From positions 6,592,622 to 6,656,621 of the forward strand of contig NZ_LT629771.1 of NCBI RefSeq assembly GCF_900105175.1: a stretch of DNA of 64,000 nt, read 5' to 3'. The DNA comes from Jiangella sp. DSM 45060 (GTDB lineage Bacteria; Actinomycetota; Actinomycetes; Jiangellales; Jiangellaceae). A program made the translations under genes and the position numbers. The notes beneath the pieces are model-generated. The model saw nothing but the letters and a program-made list of their open reading frames with translations. It had not been told where the DNA came from and searched no databases. Below are positions 4,096-37,732 of this stretch, piece by piece; the stretch's first letter is position 1; every line of letters begins with the position of its first letter.

Positions 4096-4178
4096 TGCCT
4101 TTAGGCCGCCCGACTGGACGCGTTGGCAAGGGAGGACGAGATGACGAAGACCTGACGACAATCTGGACGCGCGCTGCC

Positions 4179-4373
4179 TGGTCCAGCACCGGCACGAGTA
4201 GCGACGGCCGCAGCGTCTGGTCGAGCGCCGGCACCGGTAGCGACGGCCGCGGCGTCTGGTCGAGGGCCGGCACCGGTAGCGCCGGCACCGATGTCTGGTC
4301 GAGCGCCGGCGCCGGTAGCGACCGCCGTGACGTCTAGTCGACTGCCGGAGCCGGTAGCGACCGGACGTCCGGT
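4179..4373. repeat. Five tandem 39-bp repeats
   Basis: Units start at 4179, 4218, 4257, 4296 and 4335, each exactly 39 bp, beginning TGGTCGAGCGCCGG or a close variant. The period equals 13 codons, and one forward frame from 4095 reads WSS(A/T)GTGSDGRxV repeats, but there is no ribosome binding site and the frame stops in unit five. I read it as a non-coding minisatellite; a small repeat peptide cannot be excluded. Confidence 0.8.
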
Positions 4374-4601
4374 GGTGCGGGTGGCTGACCGGACTCCACC
4401 CGCCGGCCGCCGCGCGTGCACCGGACCCAGGCCAGGCTGTGGCGCGCCGAACAGGGCTCGCCAGACCTGGGGCCGGCCGTGTCGCGCGGGCTTGCGGCAC
4501 CGGTGGACTGCGCCGGGCTCGCCACCGTGCCGGGCAGCCGCCGCGCCGGGCCGCGGGTGCCGTCCCGGTCGCCGGAGGTGGGCCGTGTGGCGGCCGTGCC
4601 T

Positions 4602-4922
4602 CGCGGTGGCTGCGCCGGGGGTGGTGGCCGCGCCTGCCGGGTTGGGCTCGCCGGAGGTGGGCCGTGCGGTGGCCTTGCCTCGCGGTGACTGCGCCGGGGT
4701 GGTGGCCGCGCCCGCCGGGTCGTCCCCGTCGGGCGTCGGCGGGGCGGTGGCCGCGCTCCGCGGTGACCGCGCCGGGGGTGGTGGCCGCGCCTGCCGGGTT
4801 GGGCTCGCCGGAGGTGGGCCGTGCGGTGGCCTTGCCTCGCGGTGACTGCGCCGGGGTGGTGGCCGCGCCCGCCGGGTCGTCCCCGTCGGGCGTCGGCGGG
4901 GCGGTGGCCGCGCTCCGCGGTG
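4602..4922. repeat. Higher-order tandem repeat (alternating 79/78-bp units, 157-bp period)
   Basis: CGCGGTG marks unit starts at 4602, 4681, 4759, 4838 and 4916, so spacings are 79, 78, 79, 78. Units alternate between two related types. 4612-4765 and 4769-4922 are identical over 154 bp. The 157-bp period is not a multiple of three, so the block is not under reading-frame constraint. No gene is recognised between 4096 and 4944. Confidence 0.88.
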
Positions 4923-4944
4923 CTACGTCGGCGCAGCGGCGTGG

Positions 4945-5904
4945 TCAGCCGGCGGCGTCGCGGGTGTGGCGGGTCGGTTCGGGAGCCGGGCGGGCGATCG
5001 CTCGATGCTGCGACGGCGTCAGCCCGCGGCGTCGTTTGAACGCGGCGCTGAGCGCGAACGCGCTCCCGTACCCGACCTGCCGGGCGATGCTCTCGACCGT
5101 CGCGTCGGTCTCGCGCAGCAGGTCGGCGGCGATCGACAGGCGCCAGCCGGCGAGGTAGCTCATCGGTGGCTCACCCACGCGGGCGACGAAGTCGCGGGCC
5201 AGCAGCGCCCGGGACACGCCGGTCGCGGCGGCGAGCGAGCCGACCGTCCACCCGCGCCCGGGATCGTCGTGGAGGAGGCGGAGCGCCTGGCTGACCGGCG
5301 AGTCGTCCAGCCGCGAGTACCAGTGCGGCGCCGACGCCTGCGGCCGGTCGAACCAGCCGCGCAGCGTCGAGACCAGCATGAGGTCGAGTAGCCGGTCGAG
5401 CACGACCTGCTGGCCCGGCCGGTCCGCGGCGATCTCGTCGGCGACGAGATCGAGCATCGGGCACGCGCAGTCGTCCTCGGCGATCACCAGCACCCGTGGC
5501 AGCGCGTCGAGCAGCCGTTCGCTGATGCCGGCGGCGCCGTCGTACGTCCCTGTCAGCACGACGGTCTCGCCGGCGACGCCCGGGTCGCAGGTCCGCCCCA
5601 CGGCGCCGGCTTGCGCACTCCTGGCGCAGTAGTCGGCCAGCGCGATGGCGTCGTCGGGGCGGGCGTCGGGATCGGCGGCGACGGTGAACGGCTCGGGCCC
5701 GCGGACGACGGCGATGTCGCCAGTGCCGACTCGAACCGGATTGCCGTCGAGCGGGTGCAGCCAGGCGGTCCCGTCGAGGACGGCGACCAGCGTCAGCTCG
5801 GCGCCCGTCGCGAACCGCACCGACCAGCGCGAGTCGAGCACCGTTCGCCCGATCAGCGCGCCGCTCGCCCGCACGCCGTCGAGCAGGTCGGTCAATGGAT
5901 CCAC
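4945..5904 (-). CDS. AraC-family transcriptional regulator with cupin domain
   Basis: A 319-residue regulator. The N-terminal cupin-type sensor (about 1-170, DPLTDLLDGVRASGALIGRT) carries a cysteine pair (DDCACPMLDLVADE) that may bind a metal. The C-terminal AraC HTH pair spans about 205-310 (GWTVGSLAAATGVSRALLARDF and SIARQVGYGSAFALSAAFKR). GTG at 5904 is chosen because homologues begin at DPLTDLLDGV, although the GGAGG is only one base away; the frame stays open to 5961. It is divergent from an NmrA-type gene, a common pairing. A dyad ATGAAT-N15-ATTCAT at 5928-5954 lies in the shared promoter gap and is a candidate operator. Confidence 0.9.
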   Translation of the reverse strand: MDPLTDLLDGVRASGALIGRTVLDSRWSVRFATGAELTLVAVLDGTAWLHPLDGNPVRVGTGDIAVVRGPEPFTVAADPDARPDDAIALADYCARSAQAGAVGRTCDPGVAGETVVLTGTYDGAAGISERLLDALPRVLVIAEDDCACPMLDLVADEIAADRPGQQVVLDRLLDLMLVSTLRGWFDRPQASAPHWYSRLDDSPVSQALRLLHDDPGRGWTVGSLAAATGVSRALLARDFVARVGEPPMSYLAGWRLSIAADLLRETDATVESIARQVGYGSAFALSAAFKRRRGLTPSQHRAIARPAPEPTRHTRDAAG

Positions 5905-11432: not shown

Positions 11433-11467
11433 GCGCGCCCGAAGGGACTCGAACCCCTAACCTTCTG
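11433..11467. repeat. attL core (tRNA-Arg 3' fragment)
   Basis: 35 bp matching 32886-32920 except C instead of T at 11447. It holds the T-arm and 3' acceptor strand of tRNA-Arg but not the anticodon or D arms, so it is a displaced tRNA end rather than a working tRNA. Confidence 0.93.
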
Positions 11468-13176: not shown

Positions 13177-13445
13177 GCGCGCGCGGCGACCACGCCGAGT
13201 ACGTCGCGTTCGCGCGGCGGATCCTGCGCGCACTCGGCCGGCGCATGGCGGCAGCCGACCCCGAGGACCTGGTCGAGCTGCTCGCGCTGTCACGCGACGT
13301 CGACACCGCGATCGTGCAGGCCATCGTCGGGCTGCGCGCCGCCGGGTTCTCGTGGTCAGAGATCGCGATCGCCACCGGGACCACGCGGCAGGCCGCCCAC
13401 AAGCGGTGGGCTGCCGACGTCGATCGGCTGTCAACCGCTAGTTGA
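13173..13445 (+). CDS. Small HTH-like prophage protein
   Basis: 90 residues. The C-terminal part FSWSEIAIATGTTRQAAHKRW resembles the HTH of a widespread actinobacterial small-protein family, so DNA binding is plausible. It starts by ATGA overlap with the previous gene. Its 3' end is duplicated as a decayed fragment between the terminase and portal genes (25611-25715). Confidence 0.75.
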   Translation: MSARGDHAEYVAFARRILRALGRRMAAADPEDLVELLALSRDVDTAIVQAIVGLRAAGFSWSEIAIATGTTRQAAHKRWAADVDRLSTAS

Positions 13446-13554
13446 CGTCCCCGAGCACGGCGGACCCGCCGTGCCGACGGGGCGGACCCGGCTCGGTGGT
13501 CGCACACCGGGCCGGGCCCTTGATCCACCACCAGATCGAACCTGGAGGCAGACC

Positions 13555-25610: not shown

Positions 25611-25715
25611 CCACGCGGCAGACCGGCCCGACCAGCGGTGAGCCTCCGAGGCGATCGGCTGTCAACCGCCAGTTGACGTCCGCTCGTCGCCGCGGACTCG
25701 CCGTGACGACGGGGT
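25611..25715 (+). pseudogene. Decayed 3' copy of the small HTH-like gene
   Basis: 25611-25681 aligns with 13381-13450 (start CCACGCGGCAG; a 30-bp block 25652-25681 differs from 13421-13450 at one base) and still reads ...DRLSTAS then TGA on the + strand. Similarity continues more loosely to 25715 versus 13486. The upstream half is broken by indels and a stop. It lies opposite to the surrounding operon, between terminase and portal. Confidence 0.65.
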
Positions 25716-28999: not shown

Positions 29000-29653
29000 T
29001 CACTCGATGGGTCGTGGGGTTCGGCGTGACCGTCGCCTACGCCGCCGCGGCGCGGATGGCGGTGGCTCGACCCGAGTGCCGGGGCCCGGTGCGTGCTCGG
29101 GTCGGCTCGATCGGGGAGCGTTCTGGTCGCCGGCCTTGCGGTCGGCGGCGCATCCACGGCATGGCAGCGGCAGCCAGTGCAGCTCGCAGCGCTCTCGCGC
29201 GCGTTCTGGACCTTGGTCACCTGCAGTACCCCTGATCTCTGGTTCTTTACTTATGGTTCTGGGCCGCAAATTTGCGGCCATGCCCTCCGCATTTCTGCGG
29301 CTGTATTGCTGTGGTGTAGCCGCAGATCTGCGGCCCTTTGGGCGGTGCTGGAGCCTGTAGCGGTTGGTGCGCTTGCGGCCGAGTCCGCGGTCGACGATGA
29401 CCAGCCCGGCCGCCTCGAGTTCGGCGACGGCGCGGTCGACGGTGTCGGTCGCGCACCCCATGTCACCGGCCAGGTGGGCTCGGGAGGTCCACGTGTCCGC
29501 GCGTGACCCCTGGTGGACGTCGAGCAGGCCCCAGACCTGGATCGCGCGGGCGGACAGGCCCTCGCCGAGCAGGCTGGCGGGGATCTGCGCGAAGCCGTTG
29601 AGGCATGGCGGAGAGGCCGACGGGTCGCCGGCCTCCCAGAGAACGGGGTCCAA
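29000..29653 (-). CDS. Winged-helix replication initiator-like protein
   Basis: 217 residues. The N-terminal part (about 15-105) is an HTH_36-type winged helix (FAQIPASLLGEGLSARAIQV, ... MGCATDTVDRAVAELEAAGL), as in phage and plasmid replication initiators. A cysteine/histidine cluster CELHWLPLPCRGCAADRKAGD-like (C157, H159, C165, C168) follows, then a basic tail. The start is taken as TTG at 29653; there is no clear ribosome binding site. The middle of the gene contains three palindromes beside an AT-richer tract, suggesting it binds its own coding DNA as the origin, like lambda O. Confidence 0.75.
   Translation of the reverse strand: MDPVLWEAGDPSASPPCLNGFAQIPASLLGEGLSARAIQVWGLLDVHQGSRADTWTSRAHLAGDMGCATDTVDRAVAELEAAGLVIVDRGLGRKRTNRYRLQHRPKGRRSAATPQQYSRRNAEGMAANLRPRTISKEPEIRGTAGDQGPERARERCELHWLPLPCRGCAADRKAGDQNAPRSSRPEHAPGPGTRVEPPPSAPRRRRRRSRRTPRPIE
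29221..29334. other. Candidate replication origin inside the initiator gene
   Basis: Three related palindromes: GGCCGCAAATTTGCGGCC (29262-29279), CCGCATTTCTGCGG (29287-29300) and GCCGCAGATCTGCGGC (29319-29334), centres 23 and 33 bp apart, about two and three helical turns. They share CCGCA...TGCGG. 29221-29260 next to them is about half A+T, far above the surroundings, and could be an unwinding element. Confidence 0.6.
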
Positions 29654-32579: not shown

Positions 32580-32921
32580 ATGCCCGCTATGCAGAACTCG
32601 ACCGAACGCGCCAGGCCGCTGATTCCTGAGTGGACACTGGCTGACCGGCTGCGGAAGGTTCGGCTGACCACGGGGCTGCAACAGCGCGACTTCGCCGAGA
32701 GGCTGCAGGTGACGGCGAGCGCCTACGCGCAGTGGGAGGCGGGCAACACGAAGCCGCGTGACATCGTCACGGTGGCCCGTCGAATCGAGATGCTCACCGG
32801 AGTGCCGGCGACGTGGATTCTCGGTCTGTACACGGAAACACCCCGGCCAGATGGCCCGGCCGGGGTGGAGGGTGATGACTCGGTGGCGCGCCCGAAGGGA
32901 TTCGAACCCCTAACCTTCTGA
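32580..32921 (+). CDS. XRE-family immunity repressor candidate, truncated by integration
   Basis: 113 residues in the prophage. An XRE HTH occupies about 19-82 (LADRLRKVRLTTGLQQRDFA ... SAYAQWEAGNTKPRDIVTVA). Its last 11 codons (ARPKGFEPLTF) and TGA lie in attR, antisense to tRNA-Arg. The TGA exists only because the base after the att core is A; with the attP sequence it becomes TGG and the frame continues 49 codons to ...SGRAA, overlapping int. So the prophage and virion forms of this protein differ. ATG 32580 follows GGGGTGG; GTG 32532 and ATG 32589 are alternatives. It is divergent from a BldC-like gene, as rep is from cro in BPs-type phages. Confidence 0.85.
   Translation: MPAMQNSTERARPLIPEWTLADRLRKVRLTTGLQQRDFAERLQVTASAYAQWEAGNTKPRDIVTVARRIEMLTGVPATWILGLYTETPRPDGPAGVEGDDSVARPKGFEPLTF
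32839..32867 (-). terminator. Phage-supplied terminator for tRNA-Arg
   Basis: CACCCCGGCC and GGCCGGGGTG form a perfect 10-bp stem with a 9-nt loop. Read leftward from the tRNA it is followed by TTTCCGTGT. It overlaps the 3' coding part of the repressor-like gene. Confidence 0.7.
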
Positions 32922-32959
32922 TCCGTAGTCAGATGCTCTATCCGTTGAGCTACGGGCGC
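32884..32959 (-). tRNA. tRNA-Arg (anticodon ACG)
   Basis: Acceptor strands GCGCCCG/CGGGCGC pair perfectly; anticodon loop CTACGGA gives ACG; the T loop is GTTCGAATC. 73 nt plus an encoded CCA (32886-32884). The 3' half is part of the prophage att core, and the CCA comes from phage DNA. A -10-like TACACT lies about 30 bp upstream (32995-32990). Confidence 0.96.
32886..32920. repeat. attR core
   Basis: 35-bp copy of the att core within tRNA-Arg, one mismatch to 11433-11467. Confidence 0.93.
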
Positions 32960-37252: not shown

Positions 37253-37430
37253 CCACGACGGGCGCCCGGCCGCCGGCCGGGCGCGTGGCCGCTGGCCGGG
37301 TGCCTGGCCGCCGGTTGGGCGCCAGAGCGAGGCCCGGCTGGCGGCGCGCCCGAGCGCGGCGCGGCTGAGCGGGCGGCTGAGCGCGGCGCGGCTGAGCGGG
37401 CGGCTGAGCGGGCGCGGGATGGGCAGTCGC

Positions 37431-37545
37431 GTGGCCAGGCGTTTCGGAGGTTGTCGGTGCCCGCCCGTAGGGTGGGCACCCTCCCTAGAGGGGCGGGTCA
37501 TACCTACCTCGCGACGCCGCCGCCACGACACTGCCACCCGGGTCA
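37431..37545 (+). repeat. 115-bp direct repeat with dispersed hairpin core, copy B
   Basis: Starts GTGGCCAGGCGTTTCGG and contains the 28-bp core at 37450-37477 followed by ACCCTCCCTAGAGGGGCGGG. About 90% or more identical to 37617-37732. No gene between 37253 and 37729. Confidence 0.88.
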
Positions 37546-37616
37546 GCCAGCGGCGGGCACCCGGGTGGGCGCGGCTGGCAGTGTTGCCGGGCGGGCGCGG
37601 GTGGCTGGGCGGCCGT

Positions 37617-37732
37617 GTGGCCAGGCGTTTCGGGCGTTGTCCGTGCCCGCCCGTAGGGTGGGCACCCTCCCTAGAGGGGCGGGTCATACCTACCTCGCGC
37701 CGACCGCCGCCACGACACTGTCACCCGGGTCA
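37617..37732 (+). repeat. 116-bp direct repeat with dispersed hairpin core, copy C
   Basis: Core at 37636-37663. The repeat runs to the stop codon of the luciferase-like gene, which reads the other way, so it may supply that operon's terminator. Confidence 0.88.

Follow-up and report, generated by a model that had tools for sequence, protein, structure and literature searches.

A candidate iteron-type replication origin inside the initiator gene of a small Jiangella prophage, and the pairing of its palindromes with a recognition helix

Origins of replication that lie within the gene for their own initiator are an already known kind. In phage lambda, dimers of the O protein bind to iterons situated midway along gene O, and two iterons with the AT-rich tract form the minimal unwinding unit (PMC7466680). 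The Rep proteins of the staphylococcal plasmids pSK41 and pTZ2162, of the RepA_N type, carry a winged-helix N-terminal domain that binds Rep boxes situated centrally in rep, which in pSK41 is also where the origin lies (PMC5703833). In pPR9, an N-terminal domain with the PF13730 HTH and the origin region replace those of pSK41 as a module, and the hybrid Rep replicon works and is compatible with pSK41 (PMC5703833). The mycobacterial RepA prophages yielded no repeats, and their origin was only presumed to be within repA or adjacent to it (PMC7157519).

We analysed a stretch of 64,000 nucleotides from Jiangella sp. DSM 45060, referred to below as the window, for which an earlier note had proposed a lambda O-like origin within a replication-initiator gene. 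To our knowledge, the origins of most actinobacterial and metagenomic phages are unmapped. The gene in question is part of a 21.5-kb prophage integrated in tRNA-Arg; in a related genome, L349, both prophage flanks are contiguous and the element is absent. The gene that follows it encodes an endolysin, and the genes downstream serve lysis and packaging. A second related genome, G013, has an initiator gene 90% identical to that of the window. The features used below are these:

11433-11467, no strand assigned: attL, a 35-bp repeat of the tRNA-Arg end; the empty site is contiguous in L349
11612-12496, plus strand: integrase of the same prophage, beside attL (PHROG_1 integrase, 9.6e-30)
32886-32920, no strand assigned: attR, the 35-bp repeat within tRNA-Arg (32884-32959)
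29000-29653, minus strand: initiator gene, an open reading frame of 217 aa with a TTG start at 29653 and an N-terminal winged-helix domain
29351-29599, minus strand: part encoding the winged-helix domain, about residues 19-101 (hmmsearch domain E = 3e-29)
29408-29449, minus strand: codons of the recognition helix, residues 69-82 with D70 and R74 (25-member alignment, helix-site covariation)
29319-29334, minus strand: iteron 1 in gene order, the 16-bp perfect palindrome GCCGCAGATCTGCGGC, kept in the 90%-identical relative
29287-29300, minus strand: iteron 2, CCGCATTTCTGCGG on the plus strand and CCGCAGAAATGCGG on the gene strand, its arms perfect and its centre not
29262-29279, minus strand: iteron 3, the 18-bp perfect palindrome GGCCGCAAATTTGCGGCC, from the sequence and compared with the 90%-identical relative
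29220-29263, minus strand: A-rich tract by A+T content, presumed unwinding element, directly 3' of the iteron 3 core
29150-29188, minus strand: Cys/His-rich motif CELHWLPLPCRGC of the C-terminal tail

The three palindromes share the core CCGCA-N4-TGCGG (CCGCANNNNTGCGG), which starts on the plus strand at 29264, 29287 and 29320, where the earlier note had placed it, and which occurs exactly three times in the 64 kb, against an average of 0.48 in shuffled sequence. Three such cores within 70 bp have an expectation of about 7e-8, and no second pair of sites exists elsewhere in the 7.49-Mb genome. Start-to-start spacing in gene order is 33 and then 23 bp, or about 3.1 and 2.2 helical turns, in agreement with the claimed three and two. 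The first palindrome begins 18 bp after the winged-helix-coding part, at codon 107. Conservation in relatives had been suggested as a check, and the arms are indeed kept in the 90%-identical gene: iteron 2 differs there by one base in its centre with its arms unchanged, and the A-rich tract by one substitution in 44 bp. Palindromes and tract together show 2 differences in 86 bp against 56 in 568 for the rest of the gene, a modest contrast (p = 0.02).

The adjoining stretch had been described as about 50% A+T over 40 bp, and positions 29221-29260 reach 55%. No 40-mer of the prophage exceeds 29233-29272 in A+T (57.5%, against 30% in the gene), and a single other place equals it; this 40-mer overlaps the last palindrome in gene order. 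Read on the gene strand, the tract lies 3' of the sites and holds 16 A and 5 T in its first 40 bp. Across 59 loci with such sites the pattern recurs: in 56 of them the A+T content of the 40 bp following the last site exceeds that of the gene, and in 50 these 40 bp contain more A than T. Mean A+T is 53.5% in the 40 bp, 37.8% over the gene and 38.5% ahead of the first site. A few words within the tract are weakly shared with relatives, AGAACC in 10 of 46 loci where 1.4 are expected, and also CCAGAG. They are perhaps a single-strand recognition element, and were left out of the evidence for an origin.

The resemblance to lambda is one of architecture. Annotated lambda iterons lie 20, 24 and 23 bp apart and start at O codon 117, and the tract after them has 26 A and 5 T in 40 bp on the gene strand. 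In the window, too, repeated dyad sites stand inside the initiator gene just after the part for the DNA-binding domain, with an A-rich tract, conserved as sequence, immediately 3' of them. Unlike lambda, the window has three sites rather than four, of a different sequence and spaced 33 and 23 bp, and its protein is shorter than O. Among the prophage genes examined we recognised no helicase or helicase loader gene, such as a dedicated P-like loader beside the initiator, whereas relatives have one: the related phage genes adjoin ssb, helicase loader or DnaC/DnaB genes.

In six related contigs (L142, L150, L180, L194, L198 and L202) perfect or near-perfect DnaA boxes of the TTATCCACA type accompany the sites; they come in pairs next to the sites or in between them, and hardly any others occur over 4-13 kb. 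In the window prophage, by comparison, the DnaA box TTWTNCACA is absent, exact TTGTCCACA does not occur, and no canonical DnaA box lies near the sites. The same six contigs have palindromes beyond the initiator open reading frame; they look like plasmid-style origins, perhaps those of phage-plasmids.

By profile search the 217-aa window protein matches the PHROG_270 replication initiation proteins (6e-11) and the O-like PHROG_391 (4.5e-6). All 25 aligned members match PHROG_270 as well, and on these profile matches the putative initiator of the window belongs to that family. It had been called a winged-helix HTH_36 protein. The winged helix stands, as a predicted fold, but the family match is sub-threshold: the Pfam HTH_36 score (PF13730) is 20.1 bits (E = 5.7e-4), under the curated cut-off of 25 bits, although 23 of 25 aligned relatives match that model at E 0.001. 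The lambda O family model PF04492 (Phage_rep_O) gives no match to the window protein even at E 0.1, while lambda O itself scores 5.7e-36. The description "lambda O-like" applies to architecture and way of working and not to the Pfam family. A profile comparison between the window family and lambda O, a weak test, gave no alignable similarity, and sequence searches of solved structures with the window protein, lambda O and the family profile returned nothing significant.

The AlphaFold model is confident in the winged helix, with mean pLDDT above 85 over residues 31-90, but has low confidence across most other residues. Its secondary structure comprises helices at 35-48, 58-65 and 69-82 and a wing at 85-101; D70 and R74, in the third helix, are invariant across the 25-member alignment. 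In a fold search the staphylococcal Rep N-terminal domains 4pql, 5kbj and 4pt7, from the pSK41/pTZ2162 type, rank first, fourth and fifth, in modest matches (TM 0.32 by query, about 0.5 by target) that stand among many MarR- and ArsR-type regulators. At the protein level the likeness to these Reps is in fold only: there is no Pfam match to RepA_N (PF06970), and the window system belongs to a phage rather than a plasmid and to a high-GC host. The pPR9-type Rep shares the PF13730 HTH, sub-threshold in the window member, but comes from a Staphylococcus plasmid. The short C-terminal tail has no known match; its CELHWLPLPCRGC motif, identical in the 90%-identical relative and modelled with low confidence, is a possible zinc knuckle.

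We scanned viral and genome contigs by DNA alone for two CCGCA-N4-TGCGG sites within 35 bp of each other; many of the loci are metagenomic. Viral contigs yielded 82 such stretches, compared with 9 and 12 for two control palindromes matched in base composition. In 55 of 80 viral clusters, but in 1 of 21 controls (p = 7e-8), the sites are preceded on the same strand by a winged-helix domain that ends 5-367 bp upstream of them, and the 55 may be an undercount because two of the remaining loci (L143, L038) look like missed or decayed initiators. The single control cluster with a winged helix (L224) itself looks like an initiator gene of this kind whose sites have different arms. An alignment of six domains proved too diverse to serve as a query for the viral scan and was rejected. 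Among genome contigs there were 42 stretches, 18 of them with a winged helix upstream of or at the sites; as labelled, these 18 come from Actinomycetota, Chloroflexota, Pseudomonadota and Acidobacteriota, some being MAGs that may be misbinned. No winged helix was detected for 25 of the 80 viral clusters and about half of the genome clusters, and pattern matches of this sort (e.g. L024, L030, L003, L016, L152 and the kin of L152) were set aside. Spacings in the viral clusters peak at 22-24, 32-34 and 44-49 bp.

Site sequence and recognition helix also covary. Position 3 of the helix is Asp in 51 of 57 domains associated with CCGCA and in none of 11 associated with CCTCA (p = 8e-9), and among relatives collected by protein similarity alone, at least two CCGCA sites accompany six of eight D..R helices and none of 37 others (p = 3e-6), although these p-values, like that of the scan, overstate the strength of the evidence because the sequences are related and not independent. 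The two remaining D..R relatives have one CCGCA site each. Position 7 is Arg in all 57 CCGCA-associated domains; next to pairs of CCTCA sites, Lys, Ala or Met occupies position 3, and close relatives in which Ala replaces Asp have CCTCA or CGTCA half-sites instead. This covariation points to direct binding of the sites by the protein, and it could plausibly be explained in chemical terms if Asp contacts a cytosine of the half-site. D..R helices of GntR type in the motif-blind set, rejected as candidates, resemble transcription regulators and lack such sites; the rule therefore holds only within initiators. Two loci (L112, L079) are exceptions, with CCGCA arms at other centre lengths or wide spacing and winged helices without D..R.

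A motif-blind census showed that other initiators of the family have arrays of their own at similar spacing, those of Laroye, Waltz and SfV among them. SfV orf39 and Bolt007 fall in the same PHROG_270 family as the window protein, and Laroye was found by similarity. In Laroye, Waltz and SfV, repeated palindromes particular to each phage follow the winged helix at a distance of about 20-135 bp, with spacings that are mostly 21-24 or 42-46 bp; the Laroye site is GCCCG-N4-CGGGC. Compared with the window, these proteins and that of Bolt007 have other arms, other recognition helices and longer C-terminal domains; in Bolt007, an Arthrobacter phage like Laroye and Waltz, no array was detected.

Taken together, the comparative tests computed here (the position and spacing of the sites, the A-rich tract, independence of reading frame, helix-site covariation and the DnaA boxes of relatives) support the earlier proposal, and we put at about 0.86 the probability that a small temperate phage has its replication origin at 29220-29334, inside the gene of its own initiator, the origin being of iteron type and working in the manner of lambda O and ori-lambda and of the staphylococcal Rep plasmids. 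We infer a course of dimer binding, array assembly, melting and helicase recruitment. Dimers of the winged-helix protein would bind the three CCGCA-N4-TGCGG palindromes, the recognition helix reading one half-site each through D70 and R74; bound dimers, each 23-33 bp from the next, would assemble into an array; opening of the A-rich tract beside the third site would follow, and the initiator would recruit the host helicase. Helicase loading is the weak point of this scheme, and its passage through the host's own loader is a guess.

A different account of the same contacts, improbable on balance, makes the palindromes operators: a winged-helix regulator would bind within its own gene and switch the lysis and head genes, with no origin involved. 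Most winged-helix proteins are regulators, MarR- and ArsR-type repressors appear among the fold matches, lysis and packaging genes lie downstream, and the helix-site covariation speaks for binding rather than for replication. Operators, however, would be oddly placed more than 300 bp inside a gene and with paired copies nowhere else in the genome, and relatives of the protein are found within replication modules and among the PHROG replication families. The A-rich tract, which is conserved, and the DnaA boxes of relatives are features of origins. Autoregulation could occur in addition to an origin.

The repeats might also be kept for the peptide that they encode, such as a linker with Arg-Lys-Ala or Pro-Gln-Ile-Cys-Gly-like words, since the sites lie in coding sequence and similar words are seen in some relatives. 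Across the scan, however, sites occupy all three codon phases, 28 of 45 viral clusters inside an open reading frame mix phases, single genes use several (0,1,0,2,1 in L026 and 0,1,2 in L019), and the sites of some relatives are located beyond the reading frame. It is the DNA, therefore, that is conserved and not the peptide; the palindromic arms, moreover, change together with the recognition helix, and this explanation is very unlikely to be correct. Equally slim are the prospects of RNA hairpins, of attenuator or terminator type, in place of protein-binding DNA. RNA copied from palindromes with a 4-nt centre can fold into hairpins, but no run of T follows the sites, their spacing is helically regular, their arms covary with a DNA-binding helix, and the gene must be translated through them. 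Chance palindromes, thinkable for only three sites with GC-rich arms in coding sequence, are the least credible of all given the expectation of about 7e-8, their retention in relatives and the rarity of control palindromes. On shuffles, controls, frames and covariation, these last three readings were rejected.

Returning to the intragenic origin, the interesting part is the cross-phylum rule joining site and helix. We lean, with much less assurance than for the origin itself, towards these phage initiators being one modular family in which helix and intragenic palindrome coevolve by a readable rule (Asp3 with Arg7 for CCGCA-N4-TGCGG, Ala or Lys at position 3 for CCTCA), so that for many uncultured phages the origin could be located, and its sequence predicted, from the protein alone; one such pair is found in phages of at least four phyla. 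The literature searched, with subscription journals mostly outside it and its silence thus weak evidence, contained no description of the CCGCA-N4-TGCGG palindrome or the rule for the helix. Together with its helix partner and the A-rich tract beside it, this short DNA motif would directly mark a probable origin; the pairing makes initiator specificity testable by single residue swaps and offers compatible replicon modules for high-GC hosts.

Some further repeats were seen in passing. Six Bacteroidota-type contigs (L024, L025, L030, L040, L059 and L060) have CCGCA-N4-TGCGG pairs that repeatedly lie 33 bp apart, and near these sites no winged helix was detected. In four others (L003:398-432, L014, L016:12259-12293 and L164:7121-7155) CCGCA pairs lie 21 bp apart, and in L016 and L164 an apparent integrase gene ends about 30 bp ahead of the pair; these are possibly attP or terminator sites rather than origins. 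The window itself has degenerate tandem repeats at 4170-5034 and a tandem duplication at 37385-37732, and two 100-bp stretches at 13381-13482 and 25611-25714, both in the prophage and 12 kb apart, are 82% alike.
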